NCBI RefSeq assembly: GCF_030973515.1
Contig: NZ_JARGZA010000023.1
Location: 1 to 47,033, forward strand
Length of the DNA stretch: 47,033 nt
From: Jannaschia maritima
GTDB taxonomy: Bacteria > Pseudomonadota > Alphaproteobacteria > Rhodobacterales > Rhodobacteraceae
Reading direction: 5' to 3'
Shown here: piece after piece, positions 5,192-34,507 of the stretch
Layout: the number at the start of each line of letters is the position of its first letter
Position numbering within the stretch: position 1 is the stretch's first letter
Made by a program: the position numbers and the translations under genes
The notes under the pieces: generated by a model
The model's input: the letters and a program-made list of their open reading frames with translations, nothing else
Database searches by the model: none
What the model was told of the DNA's origin: nothing

Positions 5192-5869
5192 TCAGGTCTT
5201 AGGCGGGGTGGCGGTGTGCAGCCCCACGAGGCGGGCGAGTAGGATGACGGTGTAGAGGACGCCGACGATGGCCTCGGCCACGGCGGTGGCCTGCGCCAGC
5301 GGGCGGCGGGGTAGGATGTCGCCGTAGCCCGCCGAGGTGAGGGTCACGTAGGAGAAGTAGAGGTGCTCCTGCCAGGACGCGACAGGCCCGTCGGGGCCAA
5401 CGAAGCTGCCGGGCTGGAGCCATTCGACGGTGGCGAAGACGGCCGCGAAGGCCGAGCCGATCACGAGGTAGAGCGCGGTGGCGGCGAGGATCGTCTCGGT
5501 CATGACCTGGCGCGCGCCGAAGGTGTAGCGCGCGAGGACCACGAGGAAGACCGCGTGGTACGCGATGGAGGTGAGGAACACCGCTGGCGACCGCCCCGGC
5601 CCGTCCGCCAGCCCCGCCCAGACGCCCGCCATGAACACCGCCGCTCCGGTGGCGAGGGTAGCCAGTCGCAGCGTCCAGTCATGGGACAGCCACCACGTGC
5701 CTACCACGAAGATCGACCCGTAGAAGGCGTAGAACGCGACCGTGCCGAGGATGCCCGTCGTGGCGATGGGATAGACGAGATTGTGGGCCACGATGGCCGC
5801 GATCAGCCAGCCGGTCTTGGCGACCTCCGACAGGCCGCACACGGGCCGGGTCGCGGCGGCATCGCTCAC
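5192..5869 (-). CDS. Two-pore-helix K+ channel-like protein (225 aa)
   Basis: Membrane protein with about four hydrophobic segments in its N-terminal 150 residues. A C-terminal ion-channel module follows: helix ETILAATALYLVIGSAFAAV, pore loop with the selectivity-filter motif TLTSAGYGDILP, then helix VAEAIVGVLYTVILLARLVG. TxxGYGD is the diagnostic K+ filter, here T-S-A-G-Y-G-D. There is no cytoplasmic RCK/TrkA domain, so gating is not indicated. GTG 5869 is used because no in-frame ATG occurs between it and the preceding gene; the Shine-Dalgarno signal is weak. It lies 14 bases after the LtrA-like gene and 10 bases before the small membrane protein, so co-transcription is likely. Ion selectivity is inferred from the motif. 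Confidence 0.8.
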   Translation of the reverse strand: MSDAAATRPVCGLSEVAKTGWLIAAIVAHNLVYPIATTGILGTVAFYAFYGSIFVVGTWWLSHDWTLRLATLATGAAVFMAGVWAGLADGPGRSPAVFLTSIAYHAVFLVVLARYTFGARQVMTETILAATALYLVIGSAFAAVFATVEWLQPGSFVGPDGPVASWQEHLYFSYVTLTSAGYGDILPRRPLAQATAVAEAIVGVLYTVILLARLVGLHTATPPKT

Positions 5870-5883
5870 TCTGCCGGGTCCGC

Positions 5884-7140
5884 TTAGGGCGCACGGGCCT
5901 CGCCACGGTCGGGGTTCAAGAGCGCCACCGGCAGCACGACCGCGAGCATCCCCAGCCCCAGCACGATCCCGTTCGCATGTGCCGCGTGGACGGCCCAGCC
6001 GATCAGCGGCATCGCGACGATCGGGATGGCGTAGGTCCATGGCACCCGCCGCTCCAGCGTGCGGCGGAACAGGATCACGCCGGCCATGAAGATCATCGGC
6101 CCCGCGCAGGCGATCAGGATCGAGGACAGGTAGATCGCGTCCGTCGGGTGTGCGACGATCACTTCGATGGCCACCGCCACCACGATGGCCCCGCAGACCA
6201 TGATCCCGTGCGCGTAGGCGAGGCCCGCGCGCGCCAGCCGCGTCTGCTCCTCGGCCGAGTGGAACGCCTCCTCCCCCGCCTCGCCGGAATGGACGAAGTA
6301 GGTCCACCACATGCCCACGATCAGCGCGAAGCCGATCAGCGCGGTGAGGAACAGCGGCGCCGTCAGGTCCGCGCCGACCATCGTGCCGCCGAGCAGTAGG
6401 ATGCTCTCGCCGAGTGCGATTATGAAGATCAGCTGGTTGCGCTCAAGCAGGTGCAGGCCCTTCAGCGTCCACGTCTCCATCGGCGTTGGCCTGTGACGGC
6501 CCGGCACGCGGAAGCCCGCATAGGGTCCGGCGTAGTCGATAACGACGGCGGCGATCCAGAGCGGCAGGCGCATCGACTCGACGAGCGCCCCGGCGATCCA
6601 GAACACTCCGGAGAAGGCTGACCACAGACCGAGCTGCCAGTAGTTCTGCCCCATGGGCGTGCCGCGCATGACGCGGGCCATGTAGAACGCCCGGATCAGC
6701 GCCATCGCCACGTAGGCCAGCGCGAAGAGCCAAGCGCGATACCCGAACGCGTAATGGATCGACGCGGCCATCAAGAGCGCGCAGGCCATCAGCACCAGCA
6801 TCAGGACGCGCCCGTGGACCTTCTCGGGGTCGATCCAATTCGCCGACCACGCCGTGTAGTTCCATGCCCACCACACGCCCGCGAAGAGCGTGGCCGCCTC
6901 CAGCGCGCCCAGCCACGTCTGATGCTCCAGCAAGTAGTGGCTCAGCTGGATGATGGTGAAGACGTAGACGAGGTCGAAGAACAGCTCGACCGTCGTCACC
7001 TTCAGGTGCGTGCCGCCGGAGCGGTCGCGCAGGGCAGCAGATGGGGCGAGGCGGTCGAGTAGATTGAGCAAGGGGTGGGTCTCCGGTCGGCCTGTTAGAT
7101 CCAACCTACGCAAAGAGGGAAACTTGGGGAAACGGTTCAT
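5884..7140 (-). CDS. Low temperature requirement protein A (LtrA) family membrane protein (418 aa)
   Basis: Polytopic membrane protein with the LtrA family hallmark near the N-terminus: a TTVELFFDLVYVFTIIQLSHYL stretch (here about residues 49-70). It is followed by many hydrophobic helices and the conserved segment LERNQLIFIIALGESIL in the middle. The family was named from a Listeria cold-growth mutant; its biochemical role is not known. ATG 7140 is preferred; an in-frame GTG at 7170 would add ten residues without better ribosome-binding support. The dyad at 7152-7179 lies right in front of the gene. It appears to head an operon with the channel and small membrane protein. Confidence 0.85.
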   Translation of the reverse strand: MNRFPKFPSLRRLDLTGRPETHPLLNLLDRLAPSAALRDRSGGTHLKVTTVELFFDLVYVFTIIQLSHYLLEHQTWLGALEAATLFAGVWWAWNYTAWSANWIDPEKVHGRVLMLVLMACALLMAASIHYAFGYRAWLFALAYVAMALIRAFYMARVMRGTPMGQNYWQLGLWSAFSGVFWIAGALVESMRLPLWIAAVVIDYAGPYAGFRVPGRHRPTPMETWTLKGLHLLERNQLIFIIALGESILLLGGTMVGADLTAPLFLTALIGFALIVGMWWTYFVHSGEAGEEAFHSAEEQTRLARAGLAYAHGIMVCGAIVVAVAIEVIVAHPTDAIYLSSILIACAGPMIFMAGVILFRRTLERRVPWTYAIPIVAMPLIGWAVHAAHANGIVLGLGMLAVVLPVALLNPDRGEARAP

Positions 7141-26396: not shown

Positions 26397-26747
26397 ATTT
26401 GTTCTTCAAGTGCATGACAACGGGACAGTTTTTTAAACGCCGATCGGGATGCAGAAGGGTCGCTCGAAGCTCGTGGAACGTCCGAAGGGGTAGGTCCAGA
26501 CCTTTACGGAACGCTTGAACGGGGCGAACCGTCCCGCCAGCCGCATAACTCGGCGACGTGTCTTCCGGCACGCCGGACGAAGCCGACCGGGCCACGCGAG
26601 GGCGGTGGAATCCAGACACCGAGGAGTTCGATACGCGGGGCACCACATGCTGTGGTCCGGCTCCCTTCGTTCGCGCACCCCGCGAGGAACGTTGTCGCAA
26701 GACGATATCGCCTCCACGCATGGTCCCCATCTGCCGCCGCATCTGCT

Positions 26748-26898
26748 CGGGGGCGAAGGGCGGGTCCCGCAGGGACGGAACGATCCGGGGGATCGTTTCG
26801 ACGCCCGAAGCGCGGACCGCCTGAGCGGTCCGCCGGATCACCCCCCGCACGGCACCCCCCCTGCCCCGCACGACCCCCCGTCTGCCCGCGCGTATGTA
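26748..26898. repeat. Structured direct repeat, copy 1
   Basis: The unit opens with CGGGGGCGAAGG and contains CGCAGGGACGGAACGATCC. It has two stem-loops: AACGATCC/GGATCGTT around GGG (26779-26797) and GCGGACCGC/GCGGTCCGC around CTGA (26812-26833). The same order recurs in copy 2, 151-169 bases downstream depending on the landmark, so the copies differ by indels. Confidence 0.8.
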
Positions 26899-27085
26899 CG
26901 GGGGCGAAGGTCCGGTCCCCCCGCAGGGACGGAACGATCCGGGGGATCGTTTCGACGCCCGGAGTGCGGACCGCCCGAGCGGTTCGCCGGACCACTCCCC
27001 GCATGGAACGCCACCGCACGGCAACCCCCTCGCCCCAGGCAACCCCCCGTCTGCCCGCGCGTATGCACGGGGGGTGTACGGGGGG
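26899..27085. repeat. Structured direct repeat, copy 2, with a partial third start
   Basis: Repeats CGGGGGCGAAGG, CGCAGGGACGGAACGATCC and the two stem-loops (26933-26951; 26966-26987). The second stem has changed from GCGGTCCGC to GCGGTTCGC, which keeps pairing through a G-U pair. CCCCCCGTCTGCCCGCGCG followed by TATG(T/C)ACGGGG occurs at the end of both units (26875-26903 and 27044-27072). After it, GGGGTGTACGGGGGGTGCATGG looks like short further slippage. Confidence 0.75.
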
Positions 27086-27149
27086 TGCATGGGACGACGG
27101 GCCGCAGGTCGCGGTGCGTCGCATTCGACGGACCCGTGCAACACGGTTG

Positions 27150-28269: not shown

Positions 28270-28342
28270 GGGGTCGGAACAGGCTATGCCCGCCGGATGC
28301 CATGGACAAGCGACCCCGCTCCCCCTTAACGAGGGACCGCGC

Positions 28343-28419
28343 GACCCCGTGGCTCAACTGGATAGAGCAGCCCCCTCCTAAGGGGCAGGTTGCAGGTTCG
28401 AATCCTGCCGGGGTCGCCA
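28343..28419 (+). tRNA. tRNA-Arg (anticodon CCU)
   Basis: Complete cloverleaf of 77 bases with encoded CCA. Acceptor GACCCCG (28343-28349) pairs with CGGGGTC (28409-28415); D-stem GCTC/GAGC; anticodon stem GCCCC/GGGGC with loop CTCCTAA giving anticodon CCU (reads AGG); T-stem GCAGG/CCTGC with loop TTCGAAT. It lies just ahead of the methyltransferase-helicase-nuclease operon, a usual location for inserted accessory DNA. Confidence 0.96.
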
Positions 28420-28529: not shown

Positions 28530-31280
28530 ATGAACGCCGTCGAGATCGAGCAGGCCATCACCAAGTTGGCTGAGCGGGACTTCGACGCGGACGAGTTCCC
28601 GTTCGCGTTCCTCGAAGCCTTCGGGAACAAGCCGACCGGCAGCGTGATGAAGCGTTTGCGCAAGGGCACGGCGAACAAGTCCGACCTGAGCGGCGTCCTT
28701 CAGACGAACAACATCCACATGCTGGTCGCCGAGCCGGGCCACGTGGCCGAGGCGCTGACCGCCCTGCGAGACAGCCCAGCGACCGCGAACAAGCGCAACA
28801 AGGTGAAGTTCATCCTCGCCACCGACGGCGAGACGCTGGAGGCCGAGGACCTGGCCAGCGGAGAGACGGTCGCCTGCGCCTACCCCGACTTCCCGAACCA
28901 CTTCGGCTTCTTCCTCCCCCTCGCCGGCATCAGCACCGTCGAGAAGATCCGGGAGAACGCGTTCGACATCCGCGCCACGTCGCGGCTTAATAAGCTCTAC
29001 GTCAAGCTGCTGGAGGAGAACCCCGACTGGGGCTCCGCCGCGCGGCGGCACGATATGAACCACTTCATGGCGCGGCTGATCTTCTGCTTCTTCGCCGAGG
29101 ACACCGACATCTTCGGCGGCGACGACAAGTTCACCGCGACGGTCGAGCAGATGTCGGACGACACCAACACCGACTGGGTGATCGCGGAGGTGTTCCGGGC
29201 GATGAACACCAAGCCGTCCGACCGCAAGGCCGCCGGGCTGCGCAACTGGGCCGACGTGTTTCCTTACGTGAACGGGGAGATGTTCTCCGGCTCCGTCGAG
29301 GTGCCGAAGTTCTCCCGCCTCGCCCGGCGCTACCTGCTGCATATCGGGCATCTCGACTGGACGCGGATCAACCCGGACATCTTCGGCTCCATGATCCAGG
29401 CCGTCGCCGATGCCGGCGAGCGGTCGGCCCTGGGGATGCACTACACCTCCGTGCCGAACATCCTGAAGGTGCTGAACCCGCTCTTCCTCGACGATCTTCG
29501 GCGGCAGTTGGAGGAGGCGGGCGAGAACGGACGGAAGCTGCTGAACCTGCGCAAGCGGATGGCCCGCATCCGGGTGTTCGACCCGGCCTGCGGGTCCGGC
29601 AACTTCCTGGTGATCGCCTACAAGCAGATGCGGGAGATCGAGGCGGAGGTGAACCGGCGGCGGGGCGAGGCGGACGCGCCCTCGGTGATCCCGCTGACCA
29701 ACTTTCGGGGCATCGAGATCAGGGACTTCTCGGCCGAGATCGCCCGTCTGGCGCTGATCATCGCGGAGTATCAGTGCGACGTGCTCTACCGGGGCCAGAA
29801 GGAGGCGCTGGCCGAGTTCCTACCTCTCGACGCCCGCAACTGGATCACCTGCGGCAACGCGCTGCGGATCGACTGGCTGGAGGTCTGCCCGCCCACGGGG
29901 ACGGGGGCGAAGGTGCGCTCGGGCGACCTCTTCGGGGTCGAGCCGGACCAGGCGGAGATCGACTTCGAGAACGAGGGCGGGGAGACGTATATTTGTGGGA
30001 ATCCGCCTTATGTTGGCGATAAGAAGCAGGATACCGGTCAAAAGCAAGACATGGAGCGCCTCTTTCGAGATAGCACACCAAAATGGAGATCACTCGACTA
30101 CGTTTGCGGATGGCTCCTCCTAGCCTCTCGATATCTCAAGGAAAGTCGTGGTGGATCAGCGTTTGTTACAACAAACTCCATATGCCAGGGCCAGCAGGTT
30201 CCAGTTTTTTGGCCCATCATTTTCCACTTGGGCGCGCGCATATCATTCGCCCATCTTAGCTTTCTCTGGCGCAACCTCGCAAAAAATAATGCTGGCGTGA
30301 CGGTAATCGTCATCGGCCTGTCACATGATGAACTTTCAGAGCCTCGAATCTTTTCGCTCAGTTGCCAAGGTGTGATGGAAGAGCGTCGAGTTGAACAGGT
30401 AAATCCGTATCTGTTGGCAGCGCCGACGGTTTTCGTTGAGCCGACTGCAAGGCCGCAGAGCAATTTACCGAACATGCTTCTCGGGAACTTCGCGAAGGAT
30501 GGTGGCCACCTTATAATTTCGGAAAGCGAGGCAGCAACTTTCTCCGCCGACGGCCAGGCATTCCTACGCCCAATGTTCGGCGGACAGGAGATCGTGAAGG
30601 GAACACGAAGGCTCTGCATATGGGTTGAGAGCGACCAGTCAGCGGATGCTGAAAGAGTCTCGGAGTTGCAAATTAGGTTCCAGAAAGTTGCAGAGAGCAG
30701 GTTGAAAAGCCCCAAGAAAGCTACCAGGGAATGGGCAGATCGCCCTTATCGATTTGTCGAGATTCGGTCGCCAAAATATCGGACAGCGTTTGGAATACCT
30801 ATCGTGAGTTCGGAGAGACGAGAATGGTTTCCCGTTGACTTGCTGCCGGAGAATGCGATCGTAAACTACGCGTTTGGTTTGTATGATGCACCCTTATGGT
30901 CGTTGTCAGTTCTTTGCTCGCGCCTGCATCTTGCTTGGATCGCCACCGTCTGCGGCAAAATGAAGACCGATTTCCGCTACTCCAACACCCTCGGCTGGAA
31001 CACCTTCCCCGTCCCCACCCTGACCCAGAAGAACCGCGACGACCTCACCGCCTGCGCGGAGCGCATCCTGCTGACCCGCGAGGCGCATTTCCCCGCCACC
31101 ATCGCCGACCTCTACGACCCCGAGAAGATGCCGGGCGACCTCCGCGCCGCCCACGACGCCAACGACGAGACCCTGGAGCGCATCTACATCGGCCGCCGCT
31201 TCAGGAACGACACCGAGCGCCTGGAGCATCTCTTCGCCCGCTACACCAAGATGACCGCGAAGGAGGGCGCCCGTGCCTAA
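28530..31280 (+). CDS. MmeI-like DNA methyltransferase without nuclease domain (916 aa)
   Basis: Class I S-adenosylmethionine-dependent DNA methyltransferase. SAM-binding motif I FDPACGSGNFLVIAY is at about 350-364 and catalytic motif IV NPPYVG at 491-496, the N6-adenine type. The order resembles MmeI-type enzymes: N-terminal domain and helical spacer (1-330), methyltransferase (340-600), target recognition domain (about 600-800) and the conserved closing segment FRYSNTLGWNTFPVP (815-829). The PD-ExK nuclease that MmeI proper carries at its N-terminus is not seen, so cutting would have to come from a partner. ATG 28530 follows GGAGGACGACC. The stop overlaps the helicase start by 8 bases. From about 29985 to 30955 base composition drops (hand counts near 50% GC against about 65% in flanks). 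Confidence 0.9.
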   Translation: MNAVEIEQAITKLAERDFDADEFPFAFLEAFGNKPTGSVMKRLRKGTANKSDLSGVLQTNNIHMLVAEPGHVAEALTALRDSPATANKRNKVKFILATDGETLEAEDLASGETVACAYPDFPNHFGFFLPLAGISTVEKIRENAFDIRATSRLNKLYVKLLEENPDWGSAARRHDMNHFMARLIFCFFAEDTDIFGGDDKFTATVEQMSDDTNTDWVIAEVFRAMNTKPSDRKAAGLRNWADVFPYVNGEMFSGSVEVPKFSRLARRYLLHIGHLDWTRINPDIFGSMIQAVADAGERSALGMHYTSVPNILKVLNPLFLDDLRRQLEEAGENGRKLLNLRKRMARIRVFDPACGSGNFLVIAYKQMREIEAEVNRRRGEADAPSVIPLTNFRGIEIRDFSAEIARLALIIAEYQCDVLYRGQKEALAEFLPLDARNWITCGNALRIDWLEVCPPTGTGAKVRSGDLFGVEPDQAEIDFENEGGETYICGNPPYVGDKKQDTGQKQDMERLFRDSTPKWRSLDYVCGWLLLASRYLKESRGGSAFVTTNSICQGQQVPVFWPIIFHLGARISFAHLSFLWRNLAKNNAGVTVIVIGLSHDELSEPRIFSLSCQGVMEERRVEQVNPYLLAAPTVFVEPTARPQSNLPNMLLGNFAKDGGHLIISESEAATFSADGQAFLRPMFGGQEIVKGTRRLCIWVESDQSADAERVSELQIRFQKVAESRLKSPKKATREWADRPYRFVEIRSPKYRTAFGIPIVSSERREWFPVDLLPENAIVNYAFGLYDAPLWSLSVLCSRLHLAWIATVCGKMKTDFRYSNTLGWNTFPVPTLTQKNRDDLTACAERILLTREAHFPATIADLYDPEKMPGDLRAAHDANDETLERIYIGRRFRNDTERLEHLFARYTKMTAKEGARA

Positions 31281-33336
31281 CGCCGTCCCCACCGTCTCCG
31301 TCACCTACGCCCGCACCGGCGCGACCCACGCCTCCAATGAGCTCGGCATGCGCCCGATGCAGGAGCGGGCCTACGAGAAGCGGGGAGAGCAATACCTGCT
31401 TATCAAGTCGCCCCCGGCCTCCGGCAAGTCCCGCGCGCTGATGTTCATCGCGCTCGACAAGCTGGCCAACCAGGGGATGAAACAGGCCCTCGTCGTCGTG
31501 CCCGAACGGTCCATCGGATCGTCCTTCGCCGACGAGGTGCTGACCGATCATGGCTTCTGGGCCGACTGGACCGTCGCGCCCCAATGGAACCTGTGCAACG
31601 CGCCGGGCGGGGACGACGGCAAGGTCGGGGCCGTGGGGAGGTTCCTGGGATCCGAAGACCAAATCCTCATCTGCACCCACGCCACCTTCCGCTTCGCCGT
31701 GGACCGGTTCGGGATCGAGACGTTCGACGACCGGTTGATCGCGGTGGACGAGTTCCACCACGTCTCGGCCAACCCCGACAACAAGCTGGGCGCGCATCTG
31801 GGCCAGTTGATCGAGCGCGACCGTGCCCACATCGTCGCGATGACGGGCAGCTACTTTCGGGGCGACGCCGAGGCCGTGCTGTCGCCGGAGGACGAGCAGC
31901 GGTTCGATACGGTGGTCTATACCTACTACGAGCAGTTGAACGGCTACCGCTGGCTCAAGCAGCTCGACATCGGGTATTTCTTCTACACCGGGTCCTATGC
32001 CGACGACATCCTGAAGGTGCTCGACCCGACCGAGAAGACGATCCTCCACATCCCCTCCGTCAACTCGCGCGAAAGCACGAAGGACAAGCACAAGGAAGTC
32101 GGCCACATCATCGACGCCCTGGGCGAGTGGAAGCATGCCGACCCCGTGACCGGGTTCCAGATCGTCGAGACCCCGGACGGCCGGATGCTGAAGATCGCCG
32201 ACCTCGTGGACGACACGGATCCGGCCCGCCGCAACAAGGTGCTCGCCGCCCTCAAGGACCCCGCCCACAAGGACGACCGCGACCACGTGGACATCATCGT
32301 TGCGCTGGGGATGGCGAAGGAGGGGTTCGACTGGATCTGGTGCGAGCACGCCTTGACGGTGGGCTATCGGGCCTCGCTGACCGAGATCGTCCAGATCATC
32401 GGCCGGGCGACCCGAGACGCGCCGGGCAAGACCCGCGCCCGGTTCACGAACCTGATCGCCGAGCCCTCCGCCTCCGACGAGGCCGTGACCGAGGCGGTGA
32501 ACGACACGCTGAAGGCCATCGCGGCGAGCCTTCTGATGGAGCAGGTGCTGGCCCCGAAGTTCGAGTTCGTCCCTAAGACGGCGGCCAGCGGTCCGCAGGA
32601 GGGCGTGGATTACGGCCCCGATGGGTACGACCCGTCGAAGTCGAACATAGGCTTCTCGGATGGTCCCCAGGCGGCGTTCCAGATCGAGATCAAGGGACTG
32701 AAGCAACCGACGACCGAGAAGGGCCGCGCGGCCTGCGAGGATGACATCAACGACATCATCGCGGGCTTCGTGCAGGACCGGCACAATGTCGAGAAGGGCC
32801 TGTTCACCGAGAAGGAGGACCTCGTTCCCGAGGAGTTGACGCAGGTTCGGATGGGGAAGGTCATCAAGGATCGCTACCCGGAACTGCCCGAAGCGGACCG
32901 GGAGGCGATCCGTCAGAGGGCCGTCGCCGCCCTGAATCTGACCCAAAAGGCGTCGGAGGAGGTGCGGAAGGCGAAGGACGATCCAGAAGAGCCATCGCCC
33001 AACACCGCGTTGATCGACGGCGTCCGGAAGTTCGCGATGGATGTGCGGGACCTCGACATCGACCTGATCGACTCCATCAACCCCTTCGGCGAAGCCTATT
33101 CCATCCTGTCCAAGACGATGGATGCCGATGCGCTGAAGGCCGTCCAAGCGATCATCGCCGGGAAGAAGGTGAGCCTCACCATCGAGGAAGCTCGCGAACT
33201 CGCCCTGCGGGCAAAGCAGTTCAAGGCCGAGAGGGGGCGATTGCCGTCGGCGACCTCTCAGGACCCCTGGGAGCGGCGCATGGCGGAGGGGATCGCGTTC
33301 CTGAGCCGCAAGGTCGCGGAGGCGAAGCATGGCTGA
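31273..33336 (+). CDS. DEAD/DEAH-type superfamily 2 helicase of the methyltransferase system (687 aa)
   Basis: ATP-dependent DNA helicase or translocase: Walker A SPPASGKS (46-53), motif II DEFH (159-162, VDEFHH), motif III MTGSY (190-194) and motif VI QIIGRATR (374-381). A C-terminal region of about 280 residues follows. It ends with FKAERGRLPSATSQDPWERR (650-669), a motif also seen at the start of the next protein. GTG start at 31273 with AGGAGGG upstream; overlaps the methyltransferase by 8 bases and the nuclease by 8 bases, so the three are tightly coupled. In restriction systems such motors translocate on unmodified DNA before cleavage; that role here is inference. Confidence 0.9.
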   Translation: MPNAVPTVSVTYARTGATHASNELGMRPMQERAYEKRGEQYLLIKSPPASGKSRALMFIALDKLANQGMKQALVVVPERSIGSSFADEVLTDHGFWADWTVAPQWNLCNAPGGDDGKVGAVGRFLGSEDQILICTHATFRFAVDRFGIETFDDRLIAVDEFHHVSANPDNKLGAHLGQLIERDRAHIVAMTGSYFRGDAEAVLSPEDEQRFDTVVYTYYEQLNGYRWLKQLDIGYFFYTGSYADDILKVLDPTEKTILHIPSVNSRESTKDKHKEVGHIIDALGEWKHADPVTGFQIVETPDGRMLKIADLVDDTDPARRNKVLAALKDPAHKDDRDHVDIIVALGMAKEGFDWIWCEHALTVGYRASLTEIVQIIGRATRDAPGKTRARFTNLIAEPSASDEAVTEAVNDTLKAIAASLLMEQVLAPKFEFVPKTAASGPQEGVDYGPDGYDPSKSNIGFSDGPQAAFQIEIKGLKQPTTEKGRAACEDDINDIIAGFVQDRHNVEKGLFTEKEDLVPEELTQVRMGKVIKDRYPELPEADREAIRQRAVAALNLTQKASEEVRKAKDDPEEPSPNTALIDGVRKFAMDVRDLDIDLIDSINPFGEAYSILSKTMDADALKAVQAIIAGKKVSLTIEEARELALRAKQFKAERGRLPSATSQDPWERRMAEGIAFLSRKVAEAKHG

Positions 33337-34507
33337 TCAGACCGACGAGGACCTGCTGGCCGAACTCGGCGTCGAAATCGAGGTCGAGAAGTCGCGTGCC
33401 CGAACCCCGCAGGAGGAACGGGTCCTGGCCGGCTTCGAGGACATCCAGCGGTTCGTCGCTGAGAGGGATCGCATCCCCAGTCACTCGACCGACGGGGACA
33501 TCTTCGAACGTCTCTACGCCTTGCGCCTTGCCCGGCTGCAAGCGTTGACCGAATGGCACGATCTTCTGAAGCCGACAGACCATCAAGGACTCCTGTCTGC
33601 TCCCCCATTGCCACCAGACACTAATGGCAAGCTGGAAGATGACGAGGACATACTCGCCTCGCTCGGAGTCGAAGCCGAAGGGACAGACCTGACGACCCTT
33701 CGTCATGTCCGCTCGGCATCTGAAAAAAAGGCTGCGGAAGAGATCGCTCAACGCGATCCGTGCCCGGACTTCGAGAAGTTCCGCCCCCTTTTCGAGACCG
33801 TCCAATCCGAGATGGACACCGGCGTCCGAGAGACGATCCGCTTCAAAGGTGAGATGGGCATCAAGGCCGGGCGCTTCTTCGTCCTGAACGGTCAGAAGGT
33901 CTACGTCGCCGATATGGAGGAGCCCTTCCGCCAGGAGTATGGCGATTGGGACGCTCGGCTGAGGCTGGTCTACGACAACGGCACGCAGAGCAACCTGCTG
34001 ATGCGGTCCCTCCAACGGGCGCTTACGAAGGACGACACGGGGCGGCGCATCACCGACCCGAGCGCCGGGCCGCTGTTCGGAACCGCCGAGGAGGCCGGCG
34101 ACCGGCGAACGGGCACGATCTACGTTCTCAGCAGCCTGTCCGACGATCCTTGGATCGCCGAACGGCGCGACCTGTTCCATAAGGTCGGCGTGACCGGGGG
34201 AACGGTCGAACGTCGGATCGCGGATGCCGAGAACCAGCCGACCTTCCTGATGGCCGGCGTGAAGGTCGAACGAACTTACGAACTCATGAATATCAGTCGG
34301 TCGAAGTTCGAGACCCTCCTCCATCGCGTTCTGGAACCGGCTCGGGCCGACATCGAGATCACCGACCGGTTCGGTAAGCCGATCTCGCCTCGGGAGTGGT
34401 TCGTCGTGCCGCTATTGGTGATCGATGAGGCAGTCGAAGCGATCACCGCAGGCGACATCACTGGGCTTCGGTATGACCCGCAGACTGCGAGGTTGGTCAG
34501 AAGGTAG
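33329..34507 (+). CDS. T5orf172/GIY-YIG nuclease family protein (392 aa)
   Basis: C-terminal GIY-YIG-type nuclease domain of the T5orf172 group: TIYVLSSL (263-270, the GIY strand), HKVGVTGGTVERRI (284-297, the YIG strand and catalytic Arg295/296), and Glu328 in FETLLHRVL. The N-terminal half carries two copies of an LAxLGVE motif (about 10-18 and 109-116) and the segment FVAERDRIPSHSTDGDIFER (42-61) that resembles the helicase C-terminus. ATG 33329 overlaps the helicase stop. It is the obvious candidate for the cutting enzyme of the system, since the methyltransferase lacks a nuclease. Transcription likely ends in the following non-coding stretch. Confidence 0.88.
   Translation: MADQTDEDLLAELGVEIEVEKSRARTPQEERVLAGFEDIQRFVAERDRIPSHSTDGDIFERLYALRLARLQALTEWHDLLKPTDHQGLLSAPPLPPDTNGKLEDDEDILASLGVEAEGTDLTTLRHVRSASEKKAAEEIAQRDPCPDFEKFRPLFETVQSEMDTGVRETIRFKGEMGIKAGRFFVLNGQKVYVADMEEPFRQEYGDWDARLRLVYDNGTQSNLLMRSLQRALTKDDTGRRITDPSAGPLFGTAEEAGDRRTGTIYVLSSLSDDPWIAERRDLFHKVGVTGGTVERRIADAENQPTFLMAGVKVERTYELMNISRSKFETLLHRVLEPARADIEITDRFGKPISPREWFVVPLLVIDEAVEAITAGDITGLRYDPQTARLVRR

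Follow-up and report, generated by a model that had tools for sequence, protein, structure and literature searches.

Does the three-gene operon that follows a tRNA gene in Jannaschia maritima make up a restriction system, and has its type been described before? The operon lies in a window of 47,033 nucleotides, the whole stretch of DNA analysed (contig NZ_JARGZA010000023.1 of assembly GCF_030973515.1), and encodes a DNA methyltransferase (MTase), a superfamily 2 (SF2) helicase, and a protein with a GIY-YIG nuclease domain. An initial annotation of the window had proposed it as a candidate defence system with the modify-translocate-cut logic of restriction-modification (RM), matching no named system. 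Judged by sequence and gene order, the triad is already known: its layout is that of DnmA(YeeA)-YeeB-YeeC in Bacillus subtilis, and the window holds a new intact member. We consider it likely that this intact YeeABC operon is a type I-like RM system split over three chains. A live system is favoured because the catalytic residues are near-invariant in the family, the recognition cassette is swapped, and a gene slot at the MTase-helicase junction is often filled.

The window operon and its YeeABC relatives

ORF (open reading frame) calling places the three genes in a row on the plus strand with an 8-base overlap at either junction (31273-31280 and 33329-33336), the helicase ORF opening with GTG. 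These ORFs and their Pfam domains confirm the operon as first annotated, and its three predicted activities, its layout, and the RM-like logic are upheld. The ORF list puts the MTase start at 28302, a longer reading inside which the tRNA falls; translation is likely to begin at the ATG at 28530, because the MmeI_N match begins at residue 2 of the reading from 28527.

The MTase shares the whole domain series of the type IIL enzyme MmeI (MmeI_N, MmeI_hel, MmeI_Mtase at 1.7e-111, MmeI_TRD at 2e-70, and MmeI_C) and aligns with its structure (5hr4) at E 3.3e-127. Its PADLOC match is REase_MTase_IIG, with partial similarity to PglX and DrmMI also present among the best 25 of 31 matches. The N-terminus of MmeI carries its nuclease (PMC7261158), whereas the window protein has no conserved D...(D/E)xK in its N domain, and the helicase and nuclease are encoded by separate genes. 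Across 98 family MTases, residues 1-170 contain no conserved copy of this motif and a loose pattern in 18, while a search of the PDB for relatives of the MmeI_N domain alone gave three matches, all at E > 0.3. The claim that the MTase had lost its nuclease domain therefore stands for the catalytic motif but not for the domain, as MmeI_N is still present. CGSG is invariant in all 98 aligned MTases, and the third position of NPP(Y/F) is kept in 96. The operon has no separate specificity subunit, as had been noted, because the target recognition domain (TRD) is fused to the MTase.

YeeB carries the motifs PPASGKS (residues 47-53), DEFHH (159-163), and QIIGRATR (374-381); all 118 aligned helicases share ASGKS, DEFHH, TG, and the motif VI residues that were tested. 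A plasmid-borne helicase 66% identical to it carries the annotation YeeB and is flanked by a DNA methyltransferase upstream and a GIY-YIG protein downstream. YeeC matches T5orf172 (2.6e-9) and MUG113 in Pfam, and its five GIY-YIG residues (Table 1) are invariant in 113/113 proteins. It also contains two copies of an acidic motif, for which the family count is loose and lacks a shuffled control. Fold searches gave a weak SH3/KOW-like region at residues ~164-245; that no GIY-YIG entry was among the best 50 of either program proves nothing. The alignments (98 MTases, 118 helicases, and 113 nucleases, window included) had short rows removed by length and rows with stops left out (the MTases of loci L054 and L100 and the helicase of L105).

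The comparison with B. subtilis and Vibrio crassostreae rests on layout and published descriptions, the cited papers being represented here by excerpts; among 14 control genomes, B. subtilis matches MmeI_Mtase. DnmA is described as an MmeI homologue without an endonuclease motif (PMC7261158) that makes N6-methyladenine (m6A) in GACGAG, and in further species too a helicase gene lies at +1 and a T5orf172/GIY-YIG gene at +2 of dnmA (PMC7261158, PMC9973331). For this arrangement both papers refer to Morgan 2009; on defence islands, PMC9973331 refers to Makarova 2011. The window has the same order on one strand: an MmeI-family MTase without PD-(D/E)xK, then the helicase, then the T5orf172/GIY-YIG gene. 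The V. crassostreae homologues, known to us through a citation in PMC9973331, form the same triad. A full-text literature search found no other name for the triad in the texts consulted, and the titles returned by searches on embedded genes and V. crassostreae listed nothing on it. Named systems other than YeeABC were rejected, as PADLOC and NCBIfam gave, beside REase_MTase_IIG, no more than partial or weak similarity to PglX, DrmMI, mad2, PbeA, SngC, and Dnd.

We propose that YeeA joins modification and specificity, methylating one adenine, probably on one strand, in a short asymmetric site that likely ends in AG. At an unmodified site YeeA would load YeeB, an ATP-driven DNA translocase, and YeeC, possibly tethered through its two acidic motifs, would cut with its GIY-YIG domain. 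Type III and type ISP enzymes cut using two sites, and cutting here would likewise need two sites in opposite orientation, because a one-strand mark leaves the sites of one daughter unmarked after replication.

The closest working analogy is a type I RM system (HsdMSR) with fused M and S subunits, which would share the modify-translocate-cut logic and a swappable specificity. As in the window family, type I operons have accessory defence genes embedded ahead of the motor gene (PMC12255303, PMC11411939). In contrast to type I systems, the window M and S are fused and of the MmeI type, with a single MmeI_TRD rather than an HsdS with two TRDs and a bipartite site, and none of the ten neighbouring ORFs scanned is an HsdS gene. 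Its motor and GIY-YIG nuclease occupy separate chains instead of one HsdR, the nuclease of which is of the PD-(D/E)xK type. Type ISP enzymes (LlaGI-like) similarly couple a one-strand MTase to a translocating motor, but as one polypeptide with an Mrr-like nuclease.

Family spread, recognition cassette, and junction slot

At E 1e-50 the helicase is present in 17/385 genomes of a class sample and 22/398 of a phylum sample, the window's genome counted in each; these are lower bounds, since only first-look candidates were scored. The same threshold gave 1/398 in a Bacillota sample, the anchor genome itself, and 3/40 relatives have a match at E 0.001. Thus about 1 in 20 phylum-sample genomes has a YeeB helicase, with signs of selection for activity. 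Matches also occur in 264 plasmid records (153 with at least 80% coverage) and at 23 loci of a viral collection.

The co-occurrence of the three genes, on which the initial annotation had made its proposal depend, is consistent throughout. With the window excluded, an MTase lies upstream and a nuclease downstream of the helicase in 17/17 class and 21/21 phylum loci, some neighbours being seen in part at stretch or contig ends and three loci being common to both sets. A best-match set comprises the top 80 of at least 571 loci and favours relatives of the window, with near-identical loci kept (L006, L015, and L017; L016, L020, and L022); of its 80 loci, 78 have the MTase and 78 the nuclease, with the misses at contig ends. 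The viral-collection loci include a nuclease in 23/23 and an MTase in 18/23, the five misses having less than 1 kb upstream. Among genes uncut by a stretch end, the reading frame stays open across at least 90% of the gene in 97/100 MTases, 116/117 helicases, and 114/115 nucleases. The broken copies are the interrupted MTase genes of L054, L100, and L122, the short nuclease gene of L095, and the helicase of L105 (G014), which has a frame break near residue 483.

Separately, YeeB is matched by 74 plasmid records from Acinetobacter, over just part of its length in those listed, and yeeA, yeeB, and yeeC genes are named within Tn2006 and Tn2009 (PMC9258068); these may be fragments of the YeeABC family.

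The recognition part of YeeA varies while its partners stay nearly constant. Among locus pairs with helicases at least 88% identical, 119/126 have TRDs less than 65% identical, as do 41/47 pairs with helicases at least 95% identical. In those 41 pairs, which come from 26 loci and are not independent, median MTase identity is 89-100% over residues 1-480, 25-70% over 481-780, 83% over 781-840, and 93-100% over 841-916. In the window, a dip in GC coincides with the variable stretch, at ~50-58% over 29.9-30.9 kb and 63-71% in the remaining MTase gene; TRD GC is more than 5 points under the flanks in 58/98 family MTases and above in none, although low GC by itself could stem from amino-acid content. 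At the positions of K812 and D814, the family has K/D in 37, E/R in 34, and R/D in 23 of 98 MTases. In the MmeI residue-to-base code for position 6, E/R specifies C and K/D specifies G, so a G is predicted at position 6 of the window's site.

A second variable feature is the MTase-helicase junction, which is scored as an occupied slot when the gap is at least 150 bp. It is filled in 56/78 best-match, 9/17 class, and 9/21 phylum loci, L107 (266 bp, low complexity) and L123 (778 bp) being occupied by length alone; the helicase-nuclease gap never exceeds 164 bp in these sets, and no slot was seen there. Filled slots are concentrated in the subfamily of the window: among phylum-sample loci, they occur in 8/12 with helicase identity of at least 64% versus 1/9 more distant ones. 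The window's slot is empty, as is that of a Klebsiella plasmid, and both system-bearing congeners (L104 and L105) have filled slots. A FastTree tree of 114 tips, a quick tree without shuffled control from which L088 and L093 were left out as the same contigs, judged by length, as L032 and L077, gives at least 29 occupied/empty changes and at least 59 gene-set changes.

Slot genes are closely coupled to the operon. In 61/68 slots the first one of at least 100 aa either overlaps the MTase stop or begins no more than 15 bp from it, 50 of these slots having a 4-base overlap, and in the RefSeq annotation of a Paracoccus plasmid the slot gene (5582-5995) overlaps both neighbours; 4/72 slots are without any gene of at least 100 aa. 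Slot ORFs (n=138) were called mechanically on the plus strand only. Pfam matches at E 0.01 were found for 18/30 representatives, comprising Virulence_RhuM, SLFN_AlbA_2 with HATPase_c_4, BrnT, DUF1016/YhcG, PDDEXK_4, GmrSD_N, CoiA, Zeta toxin, HEPN, helix-turn-helix (HTH) with peptidase M78, HicB, pentapeptide repeats, RelB, YafQ, CcdA, and YobI-ATPase, with PLDc_2 and NucS_C below the cut-off. PADLOC matched 10/20 representatives (PDC-S05, S02, S26, S11, S67, a PDC-M55C/HEC-05 protein, and four weak). These PDC and HEC models are candidates from guilt by embedding (the preprint of Payne et al. 2024, as cited in PMC12988326 and PMC12255303). Slot genes thus often resemble nucleases, toxins, or defence candidates, and representatives of the recurrent 138-, 290-, 277-, 324-, and 264-aa families have no Pfam or PADLOC match. 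The slot yields a small set of candidate defence genes that have not been described, and could help to explain how guard genes accumulate in RM operons.

Some slots bear apparent traces of exchange. Copies of the MTase C-terminus occur in 3 slots and of the helicase N-terminus in 9, in total 11 distinct of 74 slots at E 0.01, compared with 0/209 flanking control stretches (best control E 0.07; 881 kb versus 109 kb of slot); one more match, in L007 at E 0.015, was left uncounted. All 11 scarred slots hold more than one gene. Independent events number perhaps four, because 8 of the 11 share an AlbA module and six of these form one near-identical group. These scars would be in keeping with an exchange of modules by homologous recombination that uses conserved sequence at the end of yeeA and at the start of yeeB. 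In L096 (2544-2771), a small slot ORF lying between RhuM-group and YhcG-group genes joins part of a helicase N-terminus to part of an MTase C-terminus, an apparent junction scar.

Two of the slot families recur widely. One, mostly of 137-147 aa with the consensus LNSRQkEnyNF...DDWqGADFiA...FlkvQLKGR, is found in 13 loci (L010:7579-7992, L013, L066, L157:5582-5995, and others); its representative from L010 has no Pfam or PADLOC match, and by eye the pattern could be a nuclease core. The other, of 287-294 aa (FNrmTivAA...), is found in 12 loci (L005:7127-7996, L006, L016, L044, L050, L063, L082, and others) and, with L005 likewise lacking a Pfam or PADLOC match, is a candidate new defence gene. 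The slot can also grow into a small island: those of L110 and L112 are ~7 kb long with some nine genes each and seven groups in common, including the HTH/M78 peptidase gene. The YeeC acidic motif was rejected as a docking tag common to slot proteins (0 found, 0.36 expected after shuffling).

Restriction and its alternatives

A number of points weigh against restriction by the window proteins, an activity predicted from their sequences. For YeeB and YeeC, no solved relative was found by sequence, and the YeeB structure model is poor (pLDDT 58.7) and was left unused. PADLOC 2.0.0 gave no match for YeeC and only weak ones for YeeB, and NCBIfam had no match over the cut-off for any of the three proteins. 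B. subtilis deletions of dnmA, yeeB, and yeeC left plaquing of three phages unchanged, deletion of dnmA was without effect on plasmid uptake, and the DnmA site is not depleted in phage genomes (PMC9973331, PMC7261158). The cluster, the sole well-studied YeeABC copy, was judged inactive as an RM system and a relic, with m6A altering the expression of some genes (PMC7261158, PMC9973331). The window MTase could accordingly be an orphan that sets an epigenetic mark while helicase and nuclease stand idle, but we consider this unlikely: the sampled family genes are mostly intact with invariant catalytic residues, and a cassette swapped under near-constant partners is unexpected for a conserved regulatory mark. 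Moreover, C-terminal stretches are missing from B. subtilis YeeB and YeeC (PMC9973331), whereas the family's helicase and GIY-YIG residues are present in the window copy. According to a study cited in PMC9973331, deletions in the V. crassostreae triad made the bacterium more sensitive to some phage subclades. The proposal of a defence function is thus supported in V. crassostreae, but not by the three phages used in B. subtilis.

Partial similarity of the MTase motif region to PglX/BrxX and DrmMI raises another possibility, exclusion in the manner of BREX, in which the MTase would mark self, the helicase and YeeC would block phage replication without cutting, and the GIY-YIG domain would be structural or regulatory. 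We regard this as quite improbable, since residues of that domain invariant in 113/113 proteins are what a working nuclease would be expected to show, and no other BREX or DISARM model was matched by YeeB, YeeC, or the ten neighbouring ORFs scanned (22.3-43.4 kb): PADLOC found neither the BREX core (PglZ and a BrxC-type ATPase) nor DrmA, DrmB, or DrmC of DISARM, the MTase alone being partly DrmMI-like. Translocation plus nuclease is also found in modification-dependent systems, and one slot gene encodes a GmrSD_N protein, a relative of modification-dependent enzymes. Helicase and nuclease might therefore attack DNA carrying foreign modification, the MTase only marking self or acting apart. This seems very improbable, as the three genes accompany one another wherever a sampled locus had room to show them, and it is the MTase that holds the variable specificity cassette.

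Returning to type I-like restriction, the analogy with embedded genes of type I operons may extend further. DarTG2 (PMC12255303) and TgvAB (PMC11411939) are embedded in type I RM operons, as is PrrC, which fires once EcoprrI is inhibited (PMC12707154); by analogy this suggests that some slot genes guard YeeABC. We tentatively suggest that YeeABC may be a doubly modular immune platform, in which the recognition cassette is swapped by homologous recombination and the junction slot, between the conserved ends of yeeA (3') and yeeB (5'), gathers guard genes held in check by the intact complex; these would fire on its inactivation by a phage, much as PrrC responds for EcoprrI. If so, YeeABC would owe its standing as an RM relic to a single model copy that has decayed, and the guards would include the five recurrent families lacking Pfam and PADLOC matches. 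Neither slot nor cassette swapping is mentioned in the parts of the literature consulted, and we claim no priority for either. Being intact and minimal with an empty slot, the window operon would be a clean copy for probing YeeABC restriction.

Features and flanks of the locus

Table 1. Coordinates of the YeeABC operon and adjacent tRNA gene in the window
Feature	Position	Strand	Basis or remark
tRNA-Arg(CCT)	28343..28419	+	edge of genus-variable region; not part of the system
YeeA/DnmA-type MmeI-family adenine MTase, fused target recognition domain, 916 aa	28530..31280	+	Pfam, 5hr4, PADLOC REase_MTase_IIG
MmeI_N domain, without conserved D...(D/E)xK	28530..29015	+	
MmeI_Mtase domain; motif I DPACGSGNF, motif IV NPPY	29508..30353	+	
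Swappable specificity cassette, residues ~481-780 (back of MTase domain and most of TRD)	29970..30869	+	approximate family-derived boundaries
MmeI_TRD target recognition domain; K812, D814	30420..31022	+	aligned with MmeI E806, R808
MTase-helicase junction, cargo slot of the YeeABC family, empty here	31273..31280	+	8-bp overlap
YeeB-type SF2 helicase, probable translocase, 687 aa, GTG start	31273..33336	+	DEAD/ResIII match; motifs
YeeC-type protein, C-terminal GIY-YIG/T5orf172 domain, 392 aa	33329..34507	+	
YeeC acidic motif copy 1, DEDLLAELGVE, residues 6-16	33344..33376	+	
YeeC acidic motif copy 2, DEDILASLGVE, residues 105-115	33641..33673	+	
YeeC middle region, possible SH3/KOW-like barrel (weak)	33833..34057	+	
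T5orf172/GIY-YIG domain; Y265, K285, G287, R296, E328	34112..34444	+	

The location directly after a tRNA gene, as first annotated, is borne out: tRNA-Arg(CCT) ends 110 bp before the MTase gene and is itself preceded by a LacI-type regulator gene. These two form a single match in 14/19 congeners and separate matches in the other 5. On the 3' side of the tRNA, stretches of 1.1-10 kb from 10 of the 19 congeners were compared: none is similar to the window at E 1e-5, and at E 1e-20 no pair among the ten has 200 bp in common. As the left flank is kept and the right side is unrelated, the tRNA sits at the border of a variable region. An insertion at the tRNA that left a direct repeat behind was rejected, as a search with up to 3 mismatches found the 3' end of the tRNA just once in the window.

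The region right of the triad has only partial matches in 11/19 congeners and no synteny, so an empty site could not be demonstrated. It contains a polysaccharide-type cluster (sugar transferase, MurJ-like protein, sulfotransferase, glycosyltransferases, and O-antigen ligase), and a tripartite tricarboxylate transporter lies left of the triad. With PADLOC, the ten neighbouring ORFs gave no defence match except a weak mad1 match to the LacI-type gene, so the operon is not part of a defence island in the window.

Downstream of the LacI-type gene, at 26725-27088, are imperfect direct repeats spaced 151-169 bp apart, one 96-nt pair being 90% identical. Each of the ten congeners (L124-L133) has different DNA on the 3' side of tRNA-Arg(CCT), which may be a genus-wide integration hotspot.

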